Below are positions 14,392 through 30,706 of a DNA stretch of 64,000 bases, in pieces. The DNA is from Elusimicrobiota bacterium (GTDB taxonomy: Bacteria; Elusimicrobiota; UBA8919): contig JAQUMH010000001.1 in NCBI GenBank assembly GCA_028718185.1, positions 839,186-903,185 on the forward strand. The letters are read 5' to 3'. The notes beneath the pieces were generated by a model. The model saw only the letters and a program-made list of their open reading frames with translations, did not search any database and was not told the origin of the DNA. The position numbers and the translations under genes are program-made. Numbering within the stretch: position 1 is the first letter of the stretch; each line of letters opens with the position of its first letter.

Positions 14392-17300
14392 TTAAGAACG
14401 TGATAGAGTGAATGTAAATAGATTTCCTTTGTCTTTTACTTCAATAGTAGTTACAATGGGTTTACGACGCAATTTCATTATCTGGATGCGATATTTGCCT
14501 GTTTTTAGCTTGGTTTTTAACGGTGTTTCTCCTAAAAGTATATTACCTTCAACTAAAAATACTTTTGCCTGCGGCGGGGTGGTTTCAATTGTTACTATTA
14601 CATCTTTCGCTACTGACTCTACTGCCGGTGCTGGTGCTGCCGCTGCTGCCACTTTAGTTAAATTGGTAGATAGTGTATATGCTTTTTCATTATCCTTTGA
14701 TATATCAGTTAATTCCCATGTATTTTCATCATAATCTGCTGAATCATCTAAAAAGTCTATATTAAATTTCCCTTTAGTGTCCGTATCTTCAACTTTTGTA
14801 CTTCCAACAGGCGTAAAACCTTCTTTTGACAATCTTATCGCATATGGTTTCTTCTCTAAAGAAATAACAGCCGGAGTTACATAACTTGTTTTCTCGCCAT
14901 TAATATACACATCTGCCCCTTGGGGATTAGAATCAATATTTAGTTTAATTTTAACTTCGATTTGCTTCAAATTAAAAGTAAATTTTTTATCTTCCTTACT
15001 TCTTATTTCAATGTTTTTTTCAGCTGATTCATATCCGTCTTTTGTTACTTTTATATTATGTGTTCCTGTTTTGAGTGTTGTTTTTACAGGTGTTTCACCT
15101 ATAAGTTGATTGTTATCCGCTAAAAACACTTTGGCCCCGGATGGGTTACTTTCAATGGTGACTTCTTTTCCCAAAGTTGCGGTAAGAGCGAATATTTTCT
15201 CATTATTTTGAACTGATTTTTCAAGATTCCACTGTGTTTCATCTAAATCCTGTGTACTCGCCAAAAAGTCCAAGTTGCATATTCCTTTACGTTCTGAATC
15301 ACTAACATTCATATTACCGGCAGTCACAAAACCTTCTTTAACTAATCTTATTGCATACGGTTTCGTTTCTAATGAAATCGTTGCCGGAGTCACATATTCG
15401 GTTTTCTGGCCGTTGAGATATACAACTGCCCCTTTAGGAGTAGAATCTATTTTTAATTTAATCTCGACACGTTTCAAGTCAAGGGTAAATTGACTGTCAT
15501 CTTTACCTTTTATTTCAATACTTCTTTCAACTGTTTTATATCCGTCTTTTGTTATTCTTAAACGATATGTTCCTGTTTTTAGTATTGTTTTTACCGGTGA
15601 CTCGCCTATAAGTTTATTATTATCCGCAAAAAACACTTTAGCATTACCGGGGTTTGTTTTAATTGTTACTTCTTTTTCTAAAGTACTTGATAACGTATAT
15701 AATTTTTCATTATTCTGAACTAAAACGTCGTATTTCCACATTGTTTTATCTAAATCCTGAGTACCTTCCAAAAAGTCCAAATTACATATCCCTTTATGTT
15801 CCGAAGCACTAATATCCATATTACCAACAGGCATAAATCCTTCTTTGTTTAATCTTATTGCATATGGTTTTGCTTCCAGCGTAATTGCCGCAGGTGTTAC
15901 ATATTCTGTTTTCTGACCGTTAAGATATACTTCTGCACCATTAGGAATGGAATCTATTTTTAATTTAATTTCAAACGGTACAATAAATTCGACTCTATTG
16001 GTTTTCTTATTAGCCATCTTTTTGCTAATTTTAATCTTATATGATGTTTCCTTAAATCCTTCTTTGGATATAATTAACGCGTAGTCACCGTTTGATAAAT
16101 TAGGTATCTCTACGGGCGCTATATTATTATATTTCCCGGATACAATTATATCATTTTCATGAGAATCAATTAACCTAATTTTAGCACCTGTAGGAATAGT
16201 GTCTATGTATACATCCGAAGTAAATAATGAATGTTTAATATAGGCGCCCAACGGCGTTATGCTTTTATGAATGTCCAAAAATACTTCAAATAATATTATT
16301 CCTACCAGTATTATTATGCTTGTAACACCGAGCCACCGCATGCTTTTCTTTGGTTTAGGATGTATTTCCTTTACTTCAACAACAACAGGTTTCTTTTTTA
16401 TTTCTTCTTTTTTTTCTTTTACGTCTTTTTCAGCAACTTTATCGGCAACTTTGCCGACTGCTACTTTATCAACAACCTTATCAACGCCTTTATCAACAAC
16501 TTTATTAACGACAGGAGCTTTCTTTTCAACTCCTCTGTACTCAACTTCTTTATAAGATGTTACAGGGGTTGGTACTTCACCCATCTCAAATTCTTCACTA
16601 ATGCCGACTTTTGATATAATCTTTTGATTGATTTCTTTTTCTGCTTCTTCCATAGTTTGGAAATCTGGAAAAAGCTTAACGATAAATTTCAAGATATCTT
16701 CCTGTCTTTTGCCAAATCTAAGACCTGCGGTAAGTGTTGCAAGAGATGATAAAAGTTCCCTGGCTGATTGAAATCTTTTTTGTATGTTTTTATCCAGCAT
16801 TTTCCTGATAAGCAATTGCAATTCAGTAGGTATTTTAGAAAAATCCGGTTCGCTTTTAGTTATTTTTTCTATAACTTCCTGTTTATTTCCACCTTCAAAC
16901 GGCTGATTGCCGGTTAAAATCTCATAGAACACAATGCCTAACGAAAACAAATCTGACCTGTGGTCCACATTTTTTCCTTCAATTTGTTCCGGAGACATAT
17001 AAAAATAATTTTCCGAAAATTCATTATTAGCATCCTGTACTTCCACGGATTTTGAAGAAACGGATCTAACAATTCTAAAATCTGCTAATTTTATCGCCGC
17101 GTCTGTACTAATCAGAATATTACCCGGCGATACATTTAGATGCAAAGTCTCTACTTGCAAACCAGTTGTTTTATCTCTCAACTCGTGGGCATAACAAAGC
17201 GCCTGGCTGATTTCACTAATAATTTTTAATGCTATTTCAGTTTGAAACGGTATTTTTGCCTCATTACACTTTACTAATAATTCGGATAAATTTTTACCTT

Positions 17301-17574
17301 TTACATATTCTTTGATAATATAACATATATTATCTGCACTTTTGAAAAAATCGTATACTGCTACTATATTTTTATGCTGCAGTTTGGAAGACCTGATTGT
17401 TCCTTGACGAAGAGTTTCTGCTATTGTATCATCAACTGTCAACTGCTGATGTATTTTCTTTACTGCCACCATTTTTTCTAAATTATAATCCCACGCTTTA
17501 AAAACAGCAGCAGATTTGCTGGAACCGATTTCTTTTAGCAAAAGGTATCTGTTACGAATTAGCTCTTGAGCCAT
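14392..17574 (-). CDS. PEGA-repeat receptor with a Ser/Thr kinase-like domain missing the catalytic Asp
   Basis: The protein has about 1060 residues. AAGGAGG precedes the ATG, which lies 2 bp after the TPR gene stop. Residues 1-285 form a Hanks-type kinase fold: VAVKK (Lys39), MSPEQ in place of APE (193-197) and the metal-binding Asp165. The catalytic HRD reads HLN (Asn147) and DFG reads DFR, so it is probably a pseudokinase. A Lys/Val/Asp-rich linker (about 350-395) leads to a TM helix (414-432). The extracytoplasmic part holds an initial PEGA domain and three tandem units of about 170 residues (535-704, 705-873, 874-1060), each with two PEGA domains. It may form a sensor with the adjacent TPR protein. 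Transfer of phosphate would need another kinase. Confidence 0.88.
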   Translation of the reverse strand: MAQELIRNRYLLLKEIGSSKSAAVFKAWDYNLEKMVAVKKIHQQLTVDDTIAETLRQGTIRSSKLQHKNIVAVYDFFKSADNICYIIKEYVKGKNLSELLVKCNEAKIPFQTEIALKIISEISQALCYAHELRDKTTGLQVETLHLNVSPGNILISTDAAIKLADFRIVRSVSSKSVEVQDANNEFSENYFYMSPEQIEGKNVDHRSDLFSLGIVFYEILTGNQPFEGGNKQEVIEKITKSEPDFSKIPTELQLLIRKMLDKNIQKRFQSARELLSSLATLTAGLRFGKRQEDILKFIVKLFPDFQTMEEAEKEINQKIISKVGISEEFEMGEVPTPVTSYKEVEYRGVEKKAPVVNKVVDKGVDKVVDKVAVGKVADKVAEKDVKEKKEEIKKKPVVVEVKEIHPKPKKSMRWLGVTSIIILVGIILFEVFLDIHKSITPLGAYIKHSLFTSDVYIDTIPTGAKIRLIDSHENDIIVSGKYNNIAPVEIPNLSNGDYALIISKEGFKETSYKIKISKKMANKKTNRVEFIVPFEIKLKIDSIPNGAEVYLNGQKTEYVTPAAITLEAKPYAIRLNKEGFMPVGNMDISASEHKGICNLDFLEGTQDLDKTMWKYDVLVQNNEKLYTLSSTLEKEVTIKTNPGNAKVFFADNNKLIGESPVKTILKTGTYRLRITKDGYKTVERSIEIKGKDDSQFTLDLKRVEIKLKIDSTPKGAVVYLNGQKTEYVTPATISLETKPYAIRLVKEGFVTAGNMNVSDSERKGICNLDFLASTQDLDETQWNLEKSVQNNEKIFALTATLGKEVTIESNPSGAKVFLADNNQLIGETPVKTTLKTGTHNIKVTKDGYESAEKNIEIRSKEDKKFTFNLKQIEVKIKLNIDSNPQGADVYINGEKTSYVTPAVISLEKKPYAIRLSKEGFTPVGSTKVEDTDTKGKFNIDFLDDSADYDENTWELTDISKDNEKAYTLSTNLTKVAAAAAPAPAVESVAKDVIVTIETTPPQAKVFLVEGNILLGETPLKTKLKTGKYRIQIMKLRRKPIVTTIEVKDKGNLFTFTLSRS

Positions 17575-17576
17575 AA

Positions 17577-19229
17577 TCAAACCTCCTTATTGCTATTGTT
17601 TTTTTGTGTAATTAGTTGTAAACAGTATTCTTTCTTTTTAATCGCATCGACGCTATCTTTATCAATACTAATTATCAAATCCAGACATTTTATTGCAGCA
17701 TCTATTTCATCTATAGCTATTAAACAACATGCCTTTTGATACTGTGCTTCAATATTATTATTGTCCAGCGATAAAGCTAAATTAAAACATTTTAAAGATT
17801 CCTGATGCTTACCAATTCCCCACAAGGCATTTCCTTTTATTGTCCATATTTGAGGATCATTAATAATATCAGTCTGCAATAATATATCAATTACGGTGTT
17901 AATAGATTTCAGCGCTTCATCATATTGTCCTGTGTTATTAAAACATATAGCTTTTTGAGATATCCATTTTACATAGAATGCCATTTTAGCTATATCATCC
18001 GGATTAACCGGAGCTGAATTTAATTCTACAACAGAATTGTAAATTTCAACTGCTTCCTCATAATGTTTAATTGATTGCAAACAAAATGCTTTTTTAAGTT
18101 TTGTATCAATATCTGACGGGTTACTTTTAAGATATATGTCATAACACAAAACCGCCTTTTCGTATTCTTTTAGTACTTCTAATATTTTTGCCTTTTCATA
18201 ATATATTTTCGATTCGTCTATCTTAATTTTTAAAGCATTATCGCAATTCTTTAAAGCTTCTTCATATTTACCCATAATAACAAGACAATGTATTTTTTCC
18301 AGCCAGCTAGAAACATCCTGATTAAAAGAATTTTGTAAAGCGCCGTCAAAATATTTTATTGCCTCCTGATATTTTTTAAGCTGAACAAGAACAACTCCTT
18401 TTTCATACAATATCTTGTAATTATCCGGAGTAACCAGCAAGGCTTTATCATAACAGGATACCGCTTCGTCATATTTTTTCAGGGCTGCATAAGCTTTGCC
18501 TTTATTAAATAATACATTGGAATTATCCGGCACAATACGCAACGCTTCATCGAAACAGGATATTGCATGTTCATAATGTTTTAAATCCATTAATGACTTG
18601 CCTTTCCTGAAAAAAGCCTGATAATCTTGCGGAAACAATTGCAAGACCTTATCGAAAGATTCAATCGCTTTTGCATATTTTCCCAAAGCATTTAAAGTCA
18701 AACCTTTGTTATACCAGATTCTTTTATCTTTGGGTTCTATTTCTATCGCTTTATCATAACAGGAAATTGCTTCAGAATATTGCTGAAGCCGGTATAAAGA
18801 ACAACCTTTATTGAACCAAGCAAGATAATTTTTAGGCTCATATCCCAGGACTTTTTCATAACATTTCACAGCTTCTTCATGTTCTTGTAACATCGCCAAA
18901 CATACTGCCTTGTTATTCCATGAATTACTGTTCTTAGGATCAATCTTTATTACTTTTTCATAACATTCAATGGCATTTCTATAAGCCCGCAACATTTCGT
19001 AACAAACACCTTTATTGAACAGTATTTCAATATCAGACGGATCTATTTCAGATGCCGTGTCATAATATTTAATCGCTTTTTCATAGTTCTCTAATTTCAG
19101 CAAACACAACCCTGCTTCTTTCCAACCTGCAATATCATCAGGATTTTGCGTTGTATATTCCAAATATTCAACCAATGCTTCTTTATACCGGCCTTCTTTT
19201 TTTAACTTTTCAATTTTTTTAATATTCAT
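17577..19229 (-). CDS. Large TPR-repeat protein
   Basis: The protein is about 550 residues from the ATG after AAGG; a GTG four codons upstream is possible. It is made almost entirely of about fifteen 34-residue tetratricopeptide repeats, with recurring WFNKGCSLYRL / AISCYDKAIEIEP patterns. No signal peptide is visible, so it is likely cytoplasmic and a scaffold for protein contacts. It ends 2 bp before the PEGA receptor gene and must be co-translated with it, which suggests that it docks to the receptor's kinase-like domain. Confidence 0.9.
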   Translation of the reverse strand: MNIKKIEKLKKEGRYKEALVEYLEYTTQNPDDIAGWKEAGLCLLKLENYEKAIKYYDTASEIDPSDIEILFNKGVCYEMLRAYRNAIECYEKVIKIDPKNSNSWNNKAVCLAMLQEHEEAVKCYEKVLGYEPKNYLAWFNKGCSLYRLQQYSEAISCYDKAIEIEPKDKRIWYNKGLTLNALGKYAKAIESFDKVLQLFPQDYQAFFRKGKSLMDLKHYEHAISCFDEALRIVPDNSNVLFNKGKAYAALKKYDEAVSCYDKALLVTPDNYKILYEKGVVLVQLKKYQEAIKYFDGALQNSFNQDVSSWLEKIHCLVIMGKYEEALKNCDNALKIKIDESKIYYEKAKILEVLKEYEKAVLCYDIYLKSNPSDIDTKLKKAFCLQSIKHYEEAVEIYNSVVELNSAPVNPDDIAKMAFYVKWISQKAICFNNTGQYDEALKSINTVIDILLQTDIINDPQIWTIKGNALWGIGKHQESLKCFNLALSLDNNNIEAQYQKACCLIAIDEIDAAIKCLDLIISIDKDSVDAIKKKEYCLQLITQKNNSNKEV

Positions 19230-21043: not shown

Positions 21044-21904
21044 TTACTTTATATATTTTCCAATTAAAAGTTCTAACTTTTTCTTAGTTTTAACATTTAT
21101 CATTTTAGGGGATGTCATAACTGCATACTTCAATGCATCCTGGCAAAGACATCTTCTTTCGTAATTTAATTTGACAATAACATTTTTCACAAGTTTTTTT
21201 GCATTTGATGTTAAAATGTTTAAATTCTCAATAACTTTTTCTACAGAAACTTCTTCGCCTTCTTTCCAAACATCATAATCGGTAGCAAGCCCGATAGTAG
21301 CAAAACATATTTCCGCTTCACGCGCAAGTTTTGCTTCAGGCAGGGTGGTCATACCTATAATTGAAAAACCAAGTGAACGGTAAACCTTTGATTCTGCTTT
21401 TGTGGAAAATTGAGGTCCCTCTATACAAACATATGTCCCACTATCATGGGTCGGAATGTTTAAAGACTTTGATGTTTCAATTAAAATCTTTCTTAATTCG
21501 GGGCAATAGGGCTCGGCAAAACCTATGTGAGCAACAATCCCGTCACCAAAAAATGTCGAAGGTCTCATTTTGGTTCTATCATAAACCTGGTCAGGAATTA
21601 CAAAGTCTCTTGGTCTAATCTCGTCTTTCAGCGAACCGCAAGCAGATATTGAAACTATTTTTTCTACACCAATTTTTTTAAAAGCATAAATATTCGCCCT
21701 TGAGTTAAGTTCTGACGGCATAATTCTATGACCAACTGCATGACGGGGAAGAAATGCAACTTTTATACCATCCAGTTCCCCTATCCTTAGCACGTCCGAC
21801 GGCTCTCCAAACGGCGTCTTTACTTTTAACTCTTTCAACAGTTTTATCCCTTCAATCTCATAAACCCCGCTACCGCCAATAATACCAATCTTTACATTGT
21901 CCAT
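21044..21904 (-). CDS. mtnP: S-methyl-5'-thioadenosine phosphorylase
   Basis: The protein has 286 residues and is a type I nucleoside phosphorylase. IGIIGGSGVY, the phosphate-site RHAVGHR, CIEGPQFSTKAES and the MTAP-type TDYDVW support methylthioadenosine rather than inosine specificity. It splits methylthioadenosine into adenine and methylthioribose-1-phosphate in methionine salvage. AAGGAG precedes the ATG. The neighbouring pdp and pnp genes point to general nucleoside salvage. Confidence 0.93.
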   Translation of the reverse strand: MDNVKIGIIGGSGVYEIEGIKLLKELKVKTPFGEPSDVLRIGELDGIKVAFLPRHAVGHRIMPSELNSRANIYAFKKIGVEKIVSISACGSLKDEIRPRDFVIPDQVYDRTKMRPSTFFGDGIVAHIGFAEPYCPELRKILIETSKSLNIPTHDSGTYVCIEGPQFSTKAESKVYRSLGFSIIGMTTLPEAKLAREAEICFATIGLATDYDVWKEGEEVSVEKVIENLNILTSNAKKLVKNVIVKLNYERRCLCQDALKYAVMTSPKMINVKTKKKLELLIGKYIK

Positions 21905-21927
21905 TGTTTTCTCCTTTACTTAATTGG

Positions 21928-22010
21928 GCAGACCAAGGGTCTGCAACTACAAACGCAAAGTAAGCTTTGCGACTACATTAAACCCGTCGCATAGTAATGC
22001 GACCGCTACA
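21928..22010. repeat. Three consecutive hairpin repeats with (A/G)CTACA tails (family A)
   Basis: Stems GCAGACC/GGTCTGC, CGCAAAG/CTTTGCG and GTCGCAT/ATGCGAC follow one another, each ending in (A)ACTACA or CGCTACA. They lie between pdp and mtnP. The stems differ fully but the tails match. Confidence 0.7.
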
Positions 22011-22047
22011 ATAAAACCGATTAGGGAGATTAAAATTTTAAAATCTT

Positions 22048-23391
22048 TTAATCTTTCAATCTTTTAATTGTCTCTACTTTATTTTTTGTTACTCTTGCGT
22101 AAAATAATTTAGGCGACTTCGTTTTTTTGTTCCCGATTTTATATGCATTTAAGAACTTTTCTTTTGCTTCGTTAATTTTCCTTTCATCGCCATCTGTATG
22201 AAAAACAGCAAGAGGTTCACCTTTTTTTACTTTATCTGAAACTTTTTTCTTAAGATAAATACCGGCAGATAAATCAATTTTATCATCTTTAGTTTTTCTG
22301 CCTGCTCCTAAAATCTGAGATGCTACACCTACTTCAAGAGCGTTTATTTTCTCTATATACCCCGATTTTTCTGATTTGACTTCGACTAATTCTTTACACT
22401 GAAGAAGAAGTGAAGGAACGTCGACTATAGCAGAATTGCCATCTTGTGATTCAATTAGTTCTTTAAGTTTTTTTATGCCGCTTTTATTTGCAATTGCCTC
22501 TCTTAACCTCTTCTTTCCATCAGCAATAGTTTTTACAATCCCTGAAATTAAAAGCATATTGCTTCCCAGTTCAATACATAAATCGGTTAAATCCTTAGGA
22601 CCTGCACCTTTTAATGTATCAATTGCTTCCTTTACTTCAATCGAATTACCAATTGCAAAACCCAGCGGCTCTTCCATGCTTGTAATAAGAGAAACCACTT
22701 TTTTACCGGCACCTTCACCTATATTAATCATTGTCTGTGCAAGTTTAAGAGCATCTTCATAGTTTTTCATAAATGCACCGCTACCCACTTTTACATCAAG
22801 AACAATCCCGTCAGAACCGGCGGCGAGTTTTTTCGACATAATACTTGCCGCAATAAGCGGAATTGAATCTACAGTTGCCGTAACATCTCTTAAAGCATAA
22901 ATCTTTTTATCCGCAGGTGAAAGCTGTTCGGTCTGACCGGTCAGTGCAACCCCTATTTCGTTAACATTTTCTATAAATATTTTTTTTGTCAGTTCAGTAT
23001 CAAAACCGGAAATTGACTCAAGCTTGTCAATTGTTCCGCCGGTATGCCCCAATCCGCGACCTGTCATTTTGGCAACTTTGCCACCACACGCGGCAACAAG
23101 CGGGGCAAGAACAAGCGTGGTTGTGTCACCGACACCGCCGGTTGAATGTTTGTCCACTTTGAAACCATGTATAGCCGATAAATCCATCCTTTCGCCTGAA
23201 TCTACCATCGCTATCGTCAAATCAGTAATTTCTTCAGAAACCATGCCACGGAAATAAACTACCATTAGAAATGCCGTCATTTGATAATCAGGGATTTCGC
23301 CTTTACTAAAACCCTGAACTATAAAAGAAATCTCTTCTTTTGAAAGTTTTAGACCATTTCTTTTTTTATAAATCAAATCATACATTCTCAT
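22048..23391 (-). CDS. pdp: Pyrimidine-nucleoside (thymidine) phosphorylase
   Basis: The protein has 447 residues. The family signature region KHSTGGVGDTTTLVLAPL and GRGLGHTGGTIDKLES is intact, and the N-terminal helical domain and C-terminal alpha/beta domain are present at full length. It converts thymidine, deoxyuridine or uridine to base plus (deoxy)ribose-1-phosphate. Together with deoB (29.3 kb) and deoC (38.9 kb) it would feed deoxyribose into central metabolism. pdp and deoA products cannot be told apart with certainty here. Confidence 0.93.
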   Translation of the reverse strand: MRMYDLIYKKRNGLKLSKEEISFIVQGFSKGEIPDYQMTAFLMVVYFRGMVSEEITDLTIAMVDSGERMDLSAIHGFKVDKHSTGGVGDTTTLVLAPLVAACGGKVAKMTGRGLGHTGGTIDKLESISGFDTELTKKIFIENVNEIGVALTGQTEQLSPADKKIYALRDVTATVDSIPLIAASIMSKKLAAGSDGIVLDVKVGSGAFMKNYEDALKLAQTMINIGEGAGKKVVSLITSMEEPLGFAIGNSIEVKEAIDTLKGAGPKDLTDLCIELGSNMLLISGIVKTIADGKKRLREAIANKSGIKKLKELIESQDGNSAIVDVPSLLLQCKELVEVKSEKSGYIEKINALEVGVASQILGAGRKTKDDKIDLSAGIYLKKKVSDKVKKGEPLAVFHTDGDERKINEAKEKFLNAYKIGNKKTKSPKLFYARVTKNKVETIKRLKD

Positions 23392-23515
23392 AAATTAGCC
23401 CTCGCTTCGCTCAGCACTCCGCAGAGACCGCAGAAAACACAAAATATTAGCAGATTACGCAAAAAGAAAAGTCTTTCTCTGCGGCTTTTGCGAAATCTCT
23501 GTTGTTTCTGCGTAC

Positions 23516-25729
23516 TTAAAAAAGGCTGTCTGATGATTTTATATCTAAAATTTTAAGTTGTGCAGATTCTTTCGATTGCCATACATTTAGCTCAAGATTA
23601 AATGCAAGGTCAATTTTTTGCCCTTTTCTTAAATCAACAGCCCGGCGGCCTAACTGCCAACCTATACCATTTATAACTACTTTTCCATTTTTAAGACATA
23701 CCCGCAGATGTGCACCATCAACACCAACAGGCGTAAAATCACTTAACACAACATCATTAAGCGCAAAAATAGCATATTCGTTCCCACATCCGCAAGGTTC
23801 TAAAAGTCCTATTTCTTTTACTAATTCAAGTGAAACATCAGAAGCGGAAATAACAGTATCTATCGAAAGCTGTGATACAAGCATTTTTTCTGTAATTAAA
23901 TCCTTAGCAATAAATTTTATCCGTTTAACAAAATTATCCAAATTACTCTTCATAACTGTTAATCCGGCTGCCGCTTTATGACCGCCATATTTTACAACTA
24001 TATCCTTACATTTCTCTATTATGGATACGATATTAAAATCGTTAATACTTCGCGCTGACCCCACAGCTTCATCTCCTTCAAGAATGAAAAGAATAACAGG
24101 CCTGTTAAACTCTCTCAATATTTGATTAGCGGCAATTCCGGTAACCCCGCGCTTTAATCCCTCAACAACTGTCACTAAGATTTTATCGTTGTCCATATCA
24201 TTCTGTTGAATGGTTGCATCAATAAAACTTTTTATATTGATTTTCTGAAGAGCTTTACGGTCTCCGTTAAGAATAAGTATTTCGTCAAATAATTTTTCAG
24301 CTCTGTTTTTATCATTTGTTGTTAGTAATTCTATAGATAAATCGGCTTTACCGTAGCGACCGGCAGAATTGAGAATCGGGATGACCGACCATGATAACTT
24401 ATTGGCAGTAAATGCGTTTTTATCAATCAGTAAAGCATCCAGCATTGCTTTTATACCAGGTCTATCAGAATTATAAAGTAACGGGAGACCGTATTTTACA
24501 AAAATTCTGTTCTCGGAAACAAGCGGAACTATATCTGCAATAGTACCTAATGCAACGAAGTAAAGATATTTATCTATAAACTTATTTTGCTTTTCTTCCT
24601 GCATCATAACAAGCTGTTCAAATATTTTTGAAGTAATGACAGCATCGTTGGATGCTCTATGGCATTTTTCAACTTCAATATTTAAATCATTTGCCAACAT
24701 CCCGAGTTTGTACGATTTAGCCGGGAAAAGCATTCGAGCCATAGCAAGTGTATCCATAACCTGATTGCATATTTTCTTTCCTGTTTTTTCTGATGCAGAA
24801 TATAAAAATGACATGTCAAAATCGGAATTGTGAGCTACGAGAATTGAATCACCTGTGAAATCCATAAATTTCCCTAAGACTTCATAAATAGCCGGTGCAT
24901 TTTCACAATCTTCATTAGATATGCCATGAATAGCAGTTACATTTTCAGGAATTTGTGATTTGGGTTTCACAAGTGTTGAAAAATTTCCTGTCTGAATAAA
25001 ATTTCTTATTTTTACGGCACCGATTTCAACTATTTCATCTGTTAAAGATGAAAGTCCTGTTGTTTCAACATCAAAAACAACTATGTCTTTATTGTAATAT
25101 TTTGAGTAAGAAAAAGAGAGTGCCTGGCAAAATTTGAACGCGACCCCGCAACCGGCAAGTTCCTTAAAAGGATACTTTTCTTCCGGACATTTTGGATCAA
25201 TTATGGCAATTGCTTCTGGTGGTTTGGCAGCTGCTTCATGATGGTCGGTAATTATAACATCTATACCCAGTGAATTTGCAAATTCAACTTCTTCAACAGC
25301 CGTTATCCCGCAGTCAACTGTTATTATCAATTTTACATTTTCGTTATGATATTTTTCAATCAACTTTTTGCTAAGTCCATACCCTTCGTCCAGCGGGATA
25401 TACCATATCACATTTGCATCTAATTCTTTCAAAAATAAAAAAACAATACTTACCGAAGTAACTCCATCTACATCCCTATCGCCATAAATAAGAATCTTCT
25501 CGGACTTTAATATCGCTTTTCTGATTCTGTTAACTGCTTTTTCCATATTGTTAAATAAAAATGGATTATATAAATCAGAAATTTTTGGATGGATATACTT
25601 TTTTAAATTACCCGGGGTTTTTATTCCTTTTTGAAAAAGTAAAGAAACAAATATTTTAGAGTAACCTGTTTTTTGTGAAAGGTCTTCTATCAATAAATCA
25701 TCAAATTCCTTAATTTTCCACTGTTTCAT
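23516..25729 (-). CDS. recJ: RecJ-type nuclease with an inserted DnaQ-like 3'-5' exonuclease domain
   Basis: The protein has 737 residues, versus about 570 for ordinary RecJ. DHH motifs are intact (GDRDVDG, ITVDCGI, TDHHEA), as are the late DHH motif LNSAGRYG, DHHA1 (KYGGHKAAAGL) and the OB end. Between LAGCGVAFKFCQAL and FVALGTIADI lies a complete DEDDh exonuclease domain (about 212-380): DVETTG (D220, E222), HNSDFD (D305) and HRASND (H357, D362). RecJ degrades single-stranded DNA 5'-3' in repair; this version could also trim 3' ends. Its start overlaps the mntA stop by 4 bp (ATGA), so it is translationally coupled to the HepT-MntA pair. Confidence 0.9.
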   Translation of the reverse strand: MKQWKIKEFDDLLIEDLSQKTGYSKIFVSLLFQKGIKTPGNLKKYIHPKISDLYNPFLFNNMEKAVNRIRKAILKSEKILIYGDRDVDGVTSVSIVFLFLKELDANVIWYIPLDEGYGLSKKLIEKYHNENVKLIITVDCGITAVEEVEFANSLGIDVIITDHHEAAAKPPEAIAIIDPKCPEEKYPFKELAGCGVAFKFCQALSFSYSKYYNKDIVVFDVETTGLSSLTDEIVEIGAVKIRNFIQTGNFSTLVKPKSQIPENVTAIHGISNEDCENAPAIYEVLGKFMDFTGDSILVAHNSDFDMSFLYSASEKTGKKICNQVMDTLAMARMLFPAKSYKLGMLANDLNIEVEKCHRASNDAVITSKIFEQLVMMQEEKQNKFIDKYLYFVALGTIADIVPLVSENRIFVKYGLPLLYNSDRPGIKAMLDALLIDKNAFTANKLSWSVIPILNSAGRYGKADLSIELLTTNDKNRAEKLFDEILILNGDRKALQKINIKSFIDATIQQNDMDNDKILVTVVEGLKRGVTGIAANQILREFNRPVILFILEGDEAVGSARSINDFNIVSIIEKCKDIVVKYGGHKAAAGLTVMKSNLDNFVKRIKFIAKDLITEKMLVSQLSIDTVISASDVSLELVKEIGLLEPCGCGNEYAIFALNDVVLSDFTPVGVDGAHLRVCLKNGKVVINGIGWQLGRRAVDLRKGQKIDLAFNLELNVWQSKESAQLKILDIKSSDSLF

Positions 25730-26040
25730 AATTTCTGGTTATTACTCTTCTGCAAAACCTCATATTTTTTACTTATCACTTCTCTGAATTCAGGTGAGAT
25801 GTTATTCCAATCAAGCACATCCACACGGAATGGTAAATCAGATTCTTCAAAGGCTTCCTTGAGAGAATATAAATTTTTCTTAGATAATTTATTTTCACTT
25901 ACTATTACGATATCAAGGTCGGAATAATTCTTTACTGTATCTGTTATGCGAGAACCAAATACACGAACTTCACAATTAGGAACATATTTATGCAATATCT
26001 CTTTTATAATTTTTAAATGGAGTGGAGAAACACTAATCAT
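25726..26040 (-). CDS. mntA: MntA-type nucleotidyltransferase antitoxin
   Basis: The protein has 104 residues with the MNT motif GSRITDTVKNYSDLD, that is GSX10DXD, which defines minimal nucleotidyltransferases that AMPylate the toxin HepT. It overlaps hepT by 8 bp and recJ by 4 bp, so the three genes form a tightly coupled unit. Antitoxin activity is known for the family and inferred here. The third catalytic Asp is probably in the RVDVLDW strand. Confidence 0.88.
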   Translation of the reverse strand: MISVSPLHLKIIKEILHKYVPNCEVRVFGSRITDTVKNYSDLDIVIVSENKLSKKNLYSLKEAFEESDLPFRVDVLDWNNISPEFREVISKKYEVLQKSNNQKL

Positions 26041-26452
26041 TTTTTGTTTCTAATACTTTCAATAGTGCCTTTGAATCTTTAACAAATTTGACCGCAGATT
26101 CATATACATCTTCCGCCTTTGTTTCATTATATGTGTGTGCCGTTTCATTACGGGATATATTATAAACAATCCATGATTCAACATTATCAATAAGCTGACT
26201 TTCAGCTGCCATCCTAAATAGTTCTTTTCGCGTAATTCCATCTACATTTGCACCAGCAACATTTAATTCAAGCCAGCGTTTTATAAATTTCCAGCATAGT
26301 TCAAATGTAAACTCAAAATTCTGTATTACTCCAGCACGGATAACTTCTTCCTGATCTGTATTAACTGGTCCTTTAATAATAGCAGAAGCAACTTTAGCAG
26401 CACGTTCTAATGAATTGACTGCCCTTCGTAAACTGCTCAAATCTAATGCCAT
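26033..26452 (-). CDS. hepT: HepT-type HEPN RNase toxin (HI0074-like)
   Basis: The protein has 139 residues from ATG (MALDLSS), 8 bases after AGGAG; a GTG three codons upstream is less likely. It is an all-helical HEPN protein. ISRNETAHTY gives RX4HXY (R101, H106, Y108), the RNase motif whose Tyr is the AMPylation target of MntA. The length and the FEFTFELCWKFIKRWLE core match the HI0074 nucleotidyltransferase-partner family. It is the first gene of hepT-mntA-recJ. Confidence 0.87.
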   Translation of the reverse strand: MALDLSSLRRAVNSLERAAKVASAIIKGPVNTDQEEVIRAGVIQNFEFTFELCWKFIKRWLELNVAGANVDGITRKELFRMAAESQLIDNVESWIVYNISRNETAHTYNETKAEDVYESAVKFVKDSKALLKVLETKND

Positions 26453-26523
26453 AACATACACTCCTATATATCATTTTAGTAAATATGTCTCAATAAATAA
26501 CTGAATTTTTTACAATAGTTTAG

Positions 26524-27342
26524 TTAAATTGTTTTTACTATTTCTTTTAAGTAATTGCACAGTTTTTTTTCTGTTCGCTTTCCGACTTCAATTACTTCCA
26601 TGTGGTTTAACGGTTGTTTTGAAATACCGGCTGCCATATTTGAAATGTATGAAATACCGAGAACCTTTATACCACAATGATTAGCAACAATCGCTTCAGG
26701 AACTGTAGACATACCGACAACATCAGCTCCCAAAACTCGCGTCATACTTATCTCTGCAGGTGTTTCATACGAAGGTCCTGTAACCGCAAGGTAAACACCT
26801 TTTTGGATTTTAATTCCCAATTTTTTTGCTGATATTTCTGATTTTTTCATCAGCTCATTTCTATAGATTTCTGACATATCAGGAAAACGACTTCCTTGTA
26901 ACACTCCTTCCTGACCAACAAGCGGATTGCCACCCATAAAATTTATATGGTCCGTTATCAGCATTATATCACCGGGTCTGAATTTTTTATTAACCGCTCC
27001 TACAGCAGATGTAATTATTAGTTTTTGCACACCCATATATTTCATTAACCGAACCGGGTATGTTACATCTTTAAGCGTGTGCCCCTCATAAAAATGCAGG
27101 CGACCTGCCATAATTATTATTTTTTTACCGGAAAGTTTTCCTAGAACAACTTCGCCTTTATGTCCTTCAACAGTTGATTTGGCAAAGTGCGGGATTTCGG
27201 AAAATGGGATTTTCATACTATTTAGAACAGTATCTGCAACAGACGACAACCCGGAACCTAAAATCAGTCCGATTTCCGGATTTATATCCGTTTTATTTTC
27301 AATAAACTTTTTTGATTCTTCAAGATTTTCAAGAAGACCCAT
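26524..27342 (-). CDS. punA: Purine nucleoside phosphorylase (trimeric type)
   Basis: The protein is about 272 residues from the ATG (MGLLENL); a TTG five codons upstream with AAAGG before it is the alternative. LILGSGLSS, the phosphate loop GRLHFYEGH, AVTGPSYETPAE and SNMAAG mark class I purine nucleoside phosphorylases. It splits inosine or guanosine and their deoxy forms to base plus pentose-1-phosphate. It stands between the toxin-antitoxin unit and the phosphate transporter. Confidence 0.93.
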   Translation of the reverse strand: MGLLENLEESKKFIENKTDINPEIGLILGSGLSSVADTVLNSMKIPFSEIPHFAKSTVEGHKGEVVLGKLSGKKIIIMAGRLHFYEGHTLKDVTYPVRLMKYMGVQKLIITSAVGAVNKKFRPGDIMLITDHINFMGGNPLVGQEGVLQGSRFPDMSEIYRNELMKKSEISAKKLGIKIQKGVYLAVTGPSYETPAEISMTRVLGADVVGMSTVPEAIVANHCGIKVLGISYISNMAAGISKQPLNHMEVIEVGKRTEKKLCNYLKEIVKTI

Positions 27343-27378
27343 ATTATACCTAGCCAAAACCTTTCTTTATGTTTTATT

Positions 27379-27461
27379 GTAGTTGCACGCTCTTGGCGTG
27401 CATTATGTCCAACAAAAACTTATTCCTAATAATATCTGCTTGCCAAGGGCAAGCAACTACA
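27379..27461. repeat. Family A hairpin repeats, two copies in opposite orientation
   Basis: The reverse copy at 27379-27401 reads GCACGCCAAGAGCGTGC then AACTAC on the minus strand. The forward copy at 27438-27461 reads GCTTGCCAAGGGCAAGC then AACTACA. They lie between pnp and the DUF47 gene. Confidence 0.75.
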
Positions 27462-27514
27462 AAACATCAGGACTATAAGGTGTTGCAACTACAACTTTTA
27501 ATATATTTGTTAAA

Positions 27515-28117
27515 TTATGTTGTTTTTACTAAAATGTCACCTATAATATCTGCTGATTCGGCTGCTCTGTCGGCTGCATTGGAAAGATGTCTGTAAATTT
27601 CTCTCATTTTAAGAATTTTTACTACATCCGATTGCTTGAAAAGTTTAGCAAGTCCTTCTCTATATTTATGTTCAATAAAATTTTCAGCTTTTCTCGCTCT
27701 TACAATATGTTCAGCACAAACCTTGGGATGCTCTTTCATTTCTTTTAGTGCGTAAGAAATATCTCTAGTCGCATCATAAAGCGCATCTACCATTTTTTTA
27801 AGAAATTCATCAGTACCAACTTCAAAAAGTGTCATCTCTTCAACAGTTGATTTGGCATAATCCAGGATATCATCAACAGACCTGGAAAGCGCAAATATAT
27901 CTTCCCTGTCAATTGGTGTAACAAATGATTGGTTTAATTCATCAACAAGTACTCTTCTTATTTCATCAGCTTCTTCCTCCATATCACTTACCCTTCTACC
28001 CTTTTCCGGCGTAGGATCATAAACAAAATCCTGCAATGTTTTTATGCCTTCTTCAATCTTTGACATCTGCTCTGAAAGCATTTTAAAAAAATCTCTTTTC
28101 TTGGGAAATGGCCACAT
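27515..28117 (-). CDS. DUF47 PhoU-like phosphate transport regulator
   Basis: The protein has 200 residues, is all-helical, and has the DUF47 pattern (MWPFPKKRDFFKMLSEQ, SRSVDDILDYAKSTVEEM). AAAGGAGG precedes the ATG. DUF47 proteins are PhoU relatives almost always paired with PiT transporters and thought to control them. It follows the PiT gene by about 17 bp here. Confidence 0.9.
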   Translation of the reverse strand: MWPFPKKRDFFKMLSEQMSKIEEGIKTLQDFVYDPTPEKGRRVSDMEEEADEIRRVLVDELNQSFVTPIDREDIFALSRSVDDILDYAKSTVEEMTLFEVGTDEFLKKMVDALYDATRDISYALKEMKEHPKVCAEHIVRARKAENFIEHKYREGLAKLFKQSDVVKILKMREIYRHLSNAADRAAESADIIGDILVKTT

Positions 28118-28134
28118 AACTTCAAATCCTCCTT

Positions 28135-29160
28135 TTAAATTAATGTTTTATTCAAAATATAAAAAATTAAACCTGCCATAATTCCACTTGCAGGAATGGT
28201 AATCAACCACGCAACCATCATATCCTGAGCAACCTGCCATCTAACCATTTTAGGCCGGAAAGCACTGCCGGCACCCATTATGGATGATGAAACAACTTGA
28301 GTAGTGGAAATCGGGTATCCAAAAAGTGCAGTAAAATAGATTATTAAAGTTGAGGCAGTTTGTGAAGCAAATCCGTGTATCGGTCTTATTTTGTAAAGTT
28401 TATTGCCTAATGTTTTAATGATTCGCCAACCACCGACCCCCATTCCTAGAGAAATTGTCAAGGCACAGGAAATAACAACCCAGTGGGGTACTAACATCAG
28501 TTGACTTCCTGAAATGTTATGTAATCCTAAAATAACAAGTGCAAATGTAATAACACCCATTGTTTTCTGAGCGTCATTTGTACCGTGTGCAAGCGCCTGG
28601 GTAATGCACGAAACAATTTGCAGTTTTTGGAAAACCCTATTTGCTTTTGGAGATGACCATTGCGAGAAAACCAAAGTAAACCTTGTGAAAATATATGTTA
28701 TAATTAGTCCTGCAAAAGGTGACAAAATCATAATCAAAACTATATGCCATACCTTAATCCAGTTAATTACTTTAGGACCCCAACCAAAAAGAAAAGCCCC
28801 GATAAGACCTCCGATTAAAGCATGAGAGGAAGATGATGGAATACCAAAATACCAAGTACTAAGATTCCATAAAATCGCACCGATTAAAGCGGAAATAATA
28901 ACTATTACACCGGAAGGACCTGTCTGCAGAAGTCGCGGATCGACTATGCCTTTAACAATTGTTTCTGCAACAGCAGTCCCTAAAAAGTAGGCGCCAATAA
29001 ATTCCGAAATCGCAGCTAATGTCAGAGCTACCTCAGGTGTAAGCGCATTAGAAGAAATAACAGTAGCAACCATATTTCCCGAGTCATTAAAACCATTAGT
29101 GAAATCAAAAAACAAGGCAAGTGCAACAACAAACCCGGCAATTAAAATTACTGTATCCAT
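28135..29160 (-). CDS. pit: PiT-type inorganic phosphate transporter
   Basis: The protein has 341 residues from the ATG MDTVILIAG; an upstream reading frame is encoded by repeat DNA and was dropped. It has about ten transmembrane segments and the two duplicated PiT signatures (DFTNGFNDSGNMVATVISS and LAHGTNDAQKTMGVIT). It imports phosphate or metal phosphate with protons or sodium. The phosphate could serve the nucleoside phosphorylases encoded nearby. Confidence 0.93.
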   Translation of the reverse strand: MDTVILIAGFVVALALFFDFTNGFNDSGNMVATVISSNALTPEVALTLAAISEFIGAYFLGTAVAETIVKGIVDPRLLQTGPSGVIVIISALIGAILWNLSTWYFGIPSSSSHALIGGLIGAFLFGWGPKVINWIKVWHIVLIMILSPFAGLIITYIFTRFTLVFSQWSSPKANRVFQKLQIVSCITQALAHGTNDAQKTMGVITFALVILGLHNISGSQLMLVPHWVVISCALTISLGMGVGGWRIIKTLGNKLYKIRPIHGFASQTASTLIIYFTALFGYPISTTQVVSSSIMGAGSAFRPKMVRWQVAQDMMVAWLITIPASGIMAGLIFYILNKTLI

Positions 29161-29254
29161 ATCTTCGCTTCGCTCAGAAACACGAATTATCACGAATTTC
29201 ATAATTCCTCACGAATTCATCACTAATATTCGTGTGATATTCGCGATTTTCTGT
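29161..29254. repeat. Dispersed repeat (CACGAATTATCACGAATTT type), copy 1
   Basis: CGCTTCGCTC, CACGAATTATCACGAATTT and ATTCGTGTGATATTCGCGAT recur with changes at 38728-38815 upstream of pilT. Both copies lie just upstream of a gene start and create false N-terminal extensions. Confidence 0.65.
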
Positions 29255-30559
29255 TTATTCGTGCTCATTAGTGTACACTAAATCCTTTTTAAAACTTTCA
29301 CCATTATGTAATTTTTCTATATTAAAAATATCTGCTATTGTCTGGCCTAAATCTGAAAATGTTTTTCTTACACCAAGATTAACGCTTTTTTTTAGTCTCT
29401 TACTATAAACCAGCAACGGAACATATTCTCTTGTATGGTCAGTATGTTTTGTATAAGTCGGGTCACAGCCATGGTCTGCAGTAATAAATAAAATATCTTC
29501 ATCTGCCATTGCATCATAAATTTTTGGTAAAAATTCGTCAAACTCTTTCAAGCCGTTATAATATGAATTAACATCTCTACGATGTCCCCAAAGCATATCA
29601 AAATCAACTAAATTAGTGAACACCAAACAGCGATCCAAACTGCGTTCACGTGTTGACATGTTGATATGTTCATGTGTTGATGGGTTAACTCCTAAACAGC
29701 GTTCACGTGTTGATATGTTCATTTGTTGATTCGTTGATGCGTGAACATGTGAACCAATGAACTCGTGAACGATTTTTAATGTCTCGTCCATGCCATCTTT
29801 ATTGTTTTTGGTATGTATGGATTCGGTGATACCTTTATTATTGAATATATCTTTAATTTTCCCTATTGCGATAACTTTTATATCTGAACTTTTTAACTTA
29901 TCAAGTAATGTCGGTTCGGGCGGATCTATAGAATAATCGTGACGATTTGATGTTCTTTCAAAATTTCCGGGAGTTCCTACAAACGGTCTTGCAATCACCC
30001 TTCCGACATTTAGCATTTTTCTCGCAATTTCGCAGATTTCATAAAGCCGCTTTAATCCAAAAATCTTTATATCTTCATGGGCAGCGACCTGAAAAACACT
30101 GTCTGCAGAAGTATAAACTATTGGATACCCGGTTTTGCAGTGTTCAGCCCCAAGTTGTTTTATTATTTCAGTTCCTGAAGCAGCATAATTGCCTATTGTT
30201 TTAGTCCCAATCGCCTTTTCATATTTTTTTATGAAATCTTCCGGAAAACCTTTTGGATAAGTAGGAAGCGGCTTTTTTGTGATTATGCCGGTTATTTCCC
30301 AATGCCCAATCGAGGTATCTTTACCATTTGATGCCTCGGACATTTTGCCGTAACTGCCGGTTAGTTCAGAGTTAATAGTTGGGAGTTCATAGTCAGGTAG
30401 TAAATTATATAAACCTAATTTTGCTAAGTTAGGTAGGTTAAAATCTTTTATAGATTTTGCTATATTACCCAGAGTATTTGTCCCCTCATCATTATATGCT
30501 GCTGCATCAGGTAAAAAACCTATACCGGCAGAATCTAAAACAATCAAAATAACTTTCAC
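29255..30559 (-). CDS. deoB: Phosphopentomutase with an in-frame repeat-derived insertion
   Basis: The protein is about 434 residues from a GTG start (VKVILIVLDSAGIG); normal DeoB has about 390-400. The alkaline-phosphatase-superfamily metal motifs are intact: LDSAGIG, the phospho-Thr region GKDTSIGHWE, NLVDFDMLWGHRRD and TADHGCDP. It interconverts (deoxy)ribose-1-P and -5-P. Residues about 269-310 are an extra segment encoded by tandem repeat DNA (29630-29755), just before LVFTNLVDFD. The upstream frame MPTLVGI comes from a hairpin repeat and is not coding. Confidence 0.92.
   Translation of the reverse strand: MKVILIVLDSAGIGFLPDAAAYNDEGTNTLGNIAKSIKDFNLPNLAKLGLYNLLPDYELPTINSELTGSYGKMSEASNGKDTSIGHWEITGIITKKPLPTYPKGFPEDFIKKYEKAIGTKTIGNYAASGTEIIKQLGAEHCKTGYPIVYTSADSVFQVAAHEDIKIFGLKRLYEICEIARKMLNVGRVIARPFVGTPGNFERTSNRHDYSIDPPEPTLLDKLKSSDIKVIAIGKIKDIFNNKGITESIHTKNNKDGMDETLKIVHEFIGSHVHASTNQQMNISTRERCLGVNPSTHEHINMSTRERSLDRCLVFTNLVDFDMLWGHRRDVNSYYNGLKEFDEFLPKIYDAMADEDILFITADHGCDPTYTKHTDHTREYVPLLVYSKRLKKSVNLGVRKTFSDLGQTIADIFNIEKLHNGESFKKDLVYTNEHE
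29630..29755. repeat. Tandem repeat DNA inserted in deoB
   Basis: Two imperfect copies share GCGTTCACGTGTTGA and TTGATATGTTCAT. The translated insert repeats NISTRERCLG / NMSTRERSLD. It keeps the reading frame. Confidence 0.75.
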
Positions 30560-30577
30560 AATAATAAAAGCACCTAT

Positions 30578-30706
30578 GCCAACCAAGGTTGGCAACTACA
30601 TAAAAATTGTAGTGGCAGAGCCTGACTGCCGTCAGGCAGGCTTGCTCTGCTAACATCTTTCAAACTTACTTAATAAATGATGGCTTGCCGAGGGCAAGCC
30701 ACTACA
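30578..30706. repeat. Cluster of three family A hairpin repeats
   Basis: GCCAACCAAGGTTGGC plus AACTACA (30578-30600), a reverse copy with a nested second hairpin (30609-30650, GCAGAGC/GCTCTGC arms around CCTGACTGCCGTCAGG) and GGCTTGCCGAGGGCAAGCC plus ACTACA (30682-30706). They lie between transketolase and deoB. Confidence 0.75.

Follow-up and report, generated by a model that had tools for sequence, protein, structure and literature searches.

A RecJ nuclease of Elusimicrobiota with an embedded DnaQ-like exonuclease domain that is graded from intact to excised across the phylum

RecJ is normally a nuclease of one direction, which works from the 5′ end alongside separate 3′-5′ exonucleases. 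The recJ gene in a 64,000-nucleotide stretch of an Elusimicrobiota genome (hereafter the window) raises the question of what a complete second exonuclease domain is doing within such an enzyme. It is the sole recJ of this genome (3.03 Mb, 96.7% complete). The 737-aa product scores 522.1 bits against the RecJ equivalog TIGR00644 (NCBIfam; cut-off 396.9), with a match that spans the protein, and Pfam places the DHH, DHHA1 and OB domains in the order of RecJ (Table 1). The RNase_T match covers the whole profile (positions 1–164 of 164) at 118.6 bits, compared with a gathering score of 24. A full DEDDh domain (approximately residues 213–379) thus lies between DHH motifs III and IV. The initial annotation, made from the sequence alone, had read this protein as a RecJ with a DnaQ-like domain inserted in the DHH region; the DEDDh set falls exactly at the residues it gave (D220, E222, D305, H357 and D362), and the profile searches matched all three of the expected domains, DHH, DHHA1 and RNase_T. 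The two-metal ligands of RecJ are all present: D84, D86 and D88 in motif I, D139 in motif II, H163 in the DHH motif and D399 in motif IV. Alignments to solved RecJ proteins are interrupted at the insert and pick up again beyond it.

Table 1 Features of recJ and its conserved neighbours in the window
Feature	Coordinates	Strand	Remarks
mtaP, S-methyl-5′-thioadenosine phosphorylase	21044..21904	-	conserved neighbour
deoA/pyrimidine-nucleoside phosphorylase	22048..23391	-	conserved neighbour
recJ with embedded DnaQ-like domain	23516..25729	-	737 aa, ATG start
RecJ OB domain, residues 623–729	23543..23863	-	PF17768 (RecJ_OB), 6e-25
DHHA1 domain, residues 514–606, GGH 582–584	23912..24190	-	PF02272, 4e-15
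Post-insert DHH part, residues 387–513, motif IV D399	24191..24571	-	alignment; DSSP on model
Insert, DnaQ/RNase_T of PolC-exonuclease type, residues 208–386	24572..25108	-	alignment boundaries; absent from RecJs outside the phylum
RNase_T match, residues 217–370 (D220 E222 D305 H357 D362)	24620..25081	-	PF00929, 5e-34
DHH domain, N-terminal part, motifs I–III, residues 78–207	25109..25498	-	PF01368, 3e-26
pnp, purine-nucleoside phosphorylase	26524..27357	-	conserved neighbour
deoB, phosphopentomutase	29255..30595	-	conserved neighbour

The RecJ with its insert was modelled with AlphaFold2, using an input alignment of 32 RecJ rows and 5 DnaQ rows whose motifs had been checked. Both folds are predicted with confidence (mean pLDDT 92.9, pTM 0.83). 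In Foldseek searches with the model, the RecJ fold matched S. aureus RecJ (8y30, TM 0.71), and the insert matched S. thermophilus DnaQ (8h18, TM 0.87 by target length, 2.3 Å) and E. coli epsilon (1j53, TM 0.82 by target length, 2.2 Å). The insert is thus predicted to adopt an RNase H-like exonuclease (DnaQ) fold within the RecJ fold, and the concern raised with the original claim, that its residues might form no active site in a predicted structure, was not borne out. The insert alone, predicted by AlphaFold2 without an alignment, reached a pLDDT of only 38. DSSP assigns a single helix to residues 359–398 of the model, joining Exo III of the insert to D399 of RecJ motif IV. Because this predicted helix is continuous, the insert appears to be spliced into the RecJ fold and not attached by a loose linker.

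The RecJ half is itself unusual. The claim that all DHH motifs are intact stands for the metal ligands; it fails for motif I, which reads GDRDVDG instead of GDYDxDG (25466–25480), and for the EGYG loop (25376–25396), from which the preceding conserved Arg is deleted. Both changes are clade-wide. At position 85, the 53 readable RecJs of the phylum have Arg (46), Ser (4) or Lys (3), compared with Tyr in 28 of 32 elsewhere. The equivalent of Arg109 is missing from 54 of 54 RecJs compared within the phylum and present in 27 of the 32 outside. In D. radiodurans RecJ, for which the metal ligands were also defined, Tyr80 and Arg109 bind the 5′ nucleotide (PMC4846377). With the equivalents of both residues absent, classical 5′-3′ RecJ activity is not assured, although Arg85 may, speculatively, take over phosphate binding. 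These residues are not part of the TIGR00644 model; they bear on polarity, and the altered pocket raises the question of RecJ polarity in a little-studied phylum. The change occurs in lineages with intact and with decayed inserts, and is thus independent of whether the DEDDh domain works.

We surveyed 341 Elusimicrobiota genomes and aligned their RecJs. Twenty-three genomes, from groups f1, f2, f9, f11, f13 and f26, carry an intact insert of about 180 aa at this position, and its five DEDDh residues read DEDHD in 23 of 23 sequences. A search of related genomes had been proposed as a check on the insertion, and mis-assembly as a possible explanation of it; recurrence at one site in 23 genomes shows that the insert is neither chance nor mis-assembly. 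For two further genomes (G065 and G069), which bring the total to 25, the sole evidence of the insert is that RNase_T matches within the recJ frame. Elsewhere in the phylum the inserts form a graded series, from intact through decayed remnants of about 100 aa to excision. Those of f12 (about 160 aa) keep D and E, have Asn for the Exo II Asp and have lost the His; they are still matched by RNase_T (38–41 bits), the full active site being absent. The DEDDh set is broken in inserts of about 114–160 aa in f7, f10, f27, f28 and f29, and those of f3 (Endomicrobia) measure about 100–119 aa. In f25 and some f3 only 17–18 aa are left at the site, and in the RecJ alignment the insert is fully excised in G270, G057 and G299. 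No insert was seen in the aligned RecJs of f14, f17 and f8, nor in L002, a Gastranaerophilales RecJ. Throughout the series the RecJ metal ligands (DDDDHD) are unharmed, being present in all 53 readable RecJs of the phylum, decayed-insert lineages included.

The remnants could be unrelated inserts that happen to occupy the same place, in which case no ancestral DnaQ insertion would have been shared and none would have decayed. The Endomicrobia inserts speak for this, as the shortest remnants had no significant direct match to the intact-insert profile and, for those outside g11, g13 and g20, the link is one of position. We nevertheless consider it highly improbable, given the RNase_T matches of f12, the profile match of the f10/f27/f28/f29 inserts to the intact ones (98% probability), that of the f3 inserts of g11, g13 and g20 to the f10/f27/f28/f29 inserts (77% probability), and the insertion site and operon that remnants and intact inserts share.

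Two features of RecJ in the survey are recorded separately. In most f4 and f6 genomes (for example, G033 and G010) RecJ was unmatched, including in the single-contig G033; all of those sampled retain DnaE1 with an intact PHP motif. In L067 (G204) and L068 (G202) recJ lies in huge open frames, reported as 10270 and 5397 aa, of which 2701 and 2083 aa were seen in the stretch taken; these run beyond the OB domain into other sequence.

Outside the phylum, a scan of genome contigs with the window protein, a single-protein scan that reaches close relatives only, returned L002 alone, which is insert-free. All 48 RecJs on viral contigs lack the insert, and RecJ matches in plasmid and phage collections were split in two, on stretches not long enough for it. 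The statement that ordinary RecJ has no such insert therefore holds for the RecJs inspected outside the phylum. Within Elusimicrobiota it does not, as the insert is widespread and often decayed.

In a tree of the exonuclease domains, 80% of bootstrap trees unite the RecJ inserts, a moderate support, and the united inserts lie apart from the stand-alone DnaQs of the phylum and closer to exonucleases of PolC type and of phages. The insert thus probably arose once, separately from the stand-alone DnaQ; descent of either from the other was rejected on the basis of these separate groups. At least 4 changes are needed to account for the intact state on the tree of the RecJ core. As a dead insert is unlikely to recover all five residues, we infer one gain followed by several decays.

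Selection was compared in five intact pairs (G006/G007, G066/G052, G034/G340, G063/G062 and G005/G002). With some dS values near saturation, dN/dS is 0.03–0.11 for the insert and 0.08–0.15 for the core. In decayed pairs, the insert dN is 2.5–3.4 times the core dN in three and twice the core dN in a fourth. As judged from these sequence comparisons, the intact insert is under strong purifying selection, which indicates that its residues are required for the function it is retained for. This bears on whether the insert serves chiefly as a structural or protein-docking module, as the CID does in Cdc45/GAN, with its nuclease activity incidental. The persistence in many lineages of undeleted, decayed inserts of about 100–145 aa without DEDDh is what such a module might leave, but docking alone needs no DEDDh, whose five residues are invariant in the intact group. 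The insert is also as constrained as the RecJ core, and some lineages have excised it wholly. We regard a mainly structural role as unlikely.

In the window's genome PF00929 matches the RecJ insert and no other RNase_T-family domain, and the insert is the only such domain in 22 of the 25 genomes with an insert; G271, G068 and G034 have a second. Stand-alone DnaQ is present in 28 of the 34 genomes of the tree set with a decayed or no insert. The ratio of genomes without to genomes with stand-alone DnaQ is 20/3 where the insert is intact, against 6/28 where it is not (naive Fisher test, p = 3e-7). When phylogeny is counted, there are only 2–4 independent contrasts and a sign test is not significant; the association is thus a suggestive pattern and not a demonstrated dependence. 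It suggests, on few independent events, that the insert and the stand-alone DnaQ are redundant. G271, which has both, is placed beside f12, as expected of an intermediate. An intact insert and DnaQ are both missing from G337, G270 and G014, and from G003, which is also without RecJ. The existence of such genomes indicates that the activity is dispensable.

Where the insert is the only RNase_T domain, a genome lacks enzymes of the ExoI or ExoX type, which leaves the embedded domain as the only DEDDh candidate for 3′-5′ excision. All 38 genomes examined for it have MutS1. In E. coli mismatch repair, RecJ and ExoVII carry out 5′-3′ excision, and ExoI, ExoX and ExoVII 3′-5′ excision (PMC13337833). 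Taken together, the universal MutS1, the lack of another DEDDh candidate and these E. coli roles make a repair exonuclease of two polarities the best-supported function. ExoVII, found in 32 of the 38 genomes, that of the window included, could cover both polarities too, which counts against this reading. The ExoVII large subunit of f1/f2 (G000:C1:206520-207749 and relatives) has diverged markedly, scoring about 300 bits, compared with about 405–490 in most of the phylum.

The initial annotation had offered proofreading as an alternative role, and the insert could accordingly be the replicative proofreader, in place of DnaQ/epsilon. Most genomes that carry it have, after all, no other DnaQ-family domain; the PolC proofreading exonuclease is among its nearest matches in NCBIfam; and the C-terminal DSLF (the window, G005 and G002) and QLDLV/QLDLA (some f13) faintly resemble a beta-clamp motif. 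In E. coli, the partner polymerase of epsilon has an inactive PHP site. DnaE1 of the phylum differs: in all 40 genomes examined, it has every residue of the PHP motif (HHDHEHCDH). Completeness of this motif is what defines an active PHP exonuclease (PMC12926913), so that PHP proofreading is available. Moreover, several good-quality genomes are without any DnaQ domain, and lineages with neither form of DnaQ persist. The clamp-like tails are confined to part of f1 and part of f13 and are unconserved across the intact group, which weighs against a clamp-binding tail of RecJ. Proofreading as the main role is thus disfavoured, and we consider it quite unlikely.

The genomic neighbourhood offers another explanation, in which both nuclease sites scavenge DNA to supply the nucleoside-salvage operon that houses recJ. 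A deoB-pnp-deoA-recJ-mtaP cluster, sometimes reduced, surrounds the gene in nearly all phylum members compared, placing recJ between deoA/pnp and mtaP. However, the cluster also houses RecJs with a decayed or absent insert (G024, G270 and G060), so that operon context does not explain the DnaQ domain and was dropped as the reason for it. In addition, no dephosphorylating enzyme was seen among the annotated neighbours. We consider scavenging very unlikely. The shared position does indicate that the recJ genes with intact, decayed and excised inserts are orthologues.

In the window the salvage cluster, which is phylum-wide, occupies 21044–30595 (minus strand); beyond it lie a histidine kinase and dnaA. 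A toxin-antitoxin-like pair of an MNT nucleotidyltransferase and a HEPN-type protein (HI0074 family) lies between recJ and pnp (25726–26461, minus strand), a position in which none of the other genomes compared has it, and the MNT reading frame overlaps the recJ start. The 446-aa phosphopentomutase is matched by its models in two blocks, with about 40 aa between them unmatched. At 14392–17580 (minus strand), a 1062-aa protein combines a Ser/Thr kinase domain with several PEGA domains after it.

We return to the two-polarity exonuclease, which fits the suggestion of the initial annotation that the enzyme could degrade DNA from both ends. Its architecture, residues, folds, probable single origin, selection and distribution come from sequence or prediction, and from these we infer both catalytic activities, the substrate and the pathway. 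A bifunctional single-stranded DNA exonuclease, with a 5′-3′ (RecJ) and a 3′-5′ (DEDDh) site, is a rather probable identity for the recJ product. The RecJ scaffold (DHH, DHHA1 and OB), with its intact two-metal site, would digest single-stranded DNA from the 5′ end, and the DEDDh domain, probably captured once in the loop before motif IV by the RecJ of an Elusimicrobiota ancestor, would digest 3′ ends. Where kept, the embedded domain has most likely taken on the housekeeping 3′-5′ work of stand-alone DnaQ, which may comprise end trimming, resection during repair and, in MutS-dependent mismatch repair, excision in both directions. The stand-alone DnaQ would then have been lost in lineages with a working insert, and the insert would have decayed where the stand-alone DnaQ was retained. 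We put the probability of the reading as a whole at about 0.4: that one polypeptide cuts single-stranded DNA from both ends through two unrelated sites and replaced the stand-alone DnaQ, and that, after a single capture, each lineage kept either the embedded or the free copy while the other decayed in place, the embedded one passing from active domain to excised scar.

Were this so, the enzyme would be a ready-made exonuclease of two polarities for repair and for biotechnology, and it would mean that both arms of excision can be linked covalently. The graded series can be viewed as a natural experiment on the fate of a catalytic domain after its capture: retention, silencing, shrinkage or removal inside a conserved fold. 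In open-access full text we found no published description of a RecJ with a DnaQ/DEDDh insertion. What seems new is the combination, as both halves belong to known families and DEDDh domains are already known inside other enzymes (PolC and DinG).

Compared with bacterial RecJ (S. aureus 8y30, D. radiodurans 5f54-5f56 and T. thermophilus 2zxo/1ir6), the Elusimicrobiota enzyme has the same DHH-DHHA1-OB order, metal ligands and overall fold, but differs in its DEDDh domain of about 170 aa before motif IV, in the replacement of Tyr80 by Arg and in the loss of Arg109. The closest sequence relatives of the insert are the exonucleases of PolC-type DNA polymerase III (2p1j and 9qpc; 41–47% identity). 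There, too, a DEDDh domain is embedded in another enzyme, but the host of the insert is a nuclease and not a polymerase; no PolC was found above the cut-off in the window's genome. Archaeal GAN/RecJ and eukaryotic Cdc45 are members of the RecJ superfamily with an extra domain, the CID, after the N-terminal DHH part (PMC5484177). The CID, in contrast, is not a DEDDh nuclease, and Cdc45 is catalytically dead. S. aureus DinG with an N-terminal DEDDh domain (8zef) is likewise a repair enzyme to which such a domain was added, and the fused domain is an active 3′-5′ exonuclease (PMC12345164). In DinG the exonuclease is joined end to end to a helicase, whereas in the Elusimicrobiota RecJ it is inserted into the core of a nuclease.
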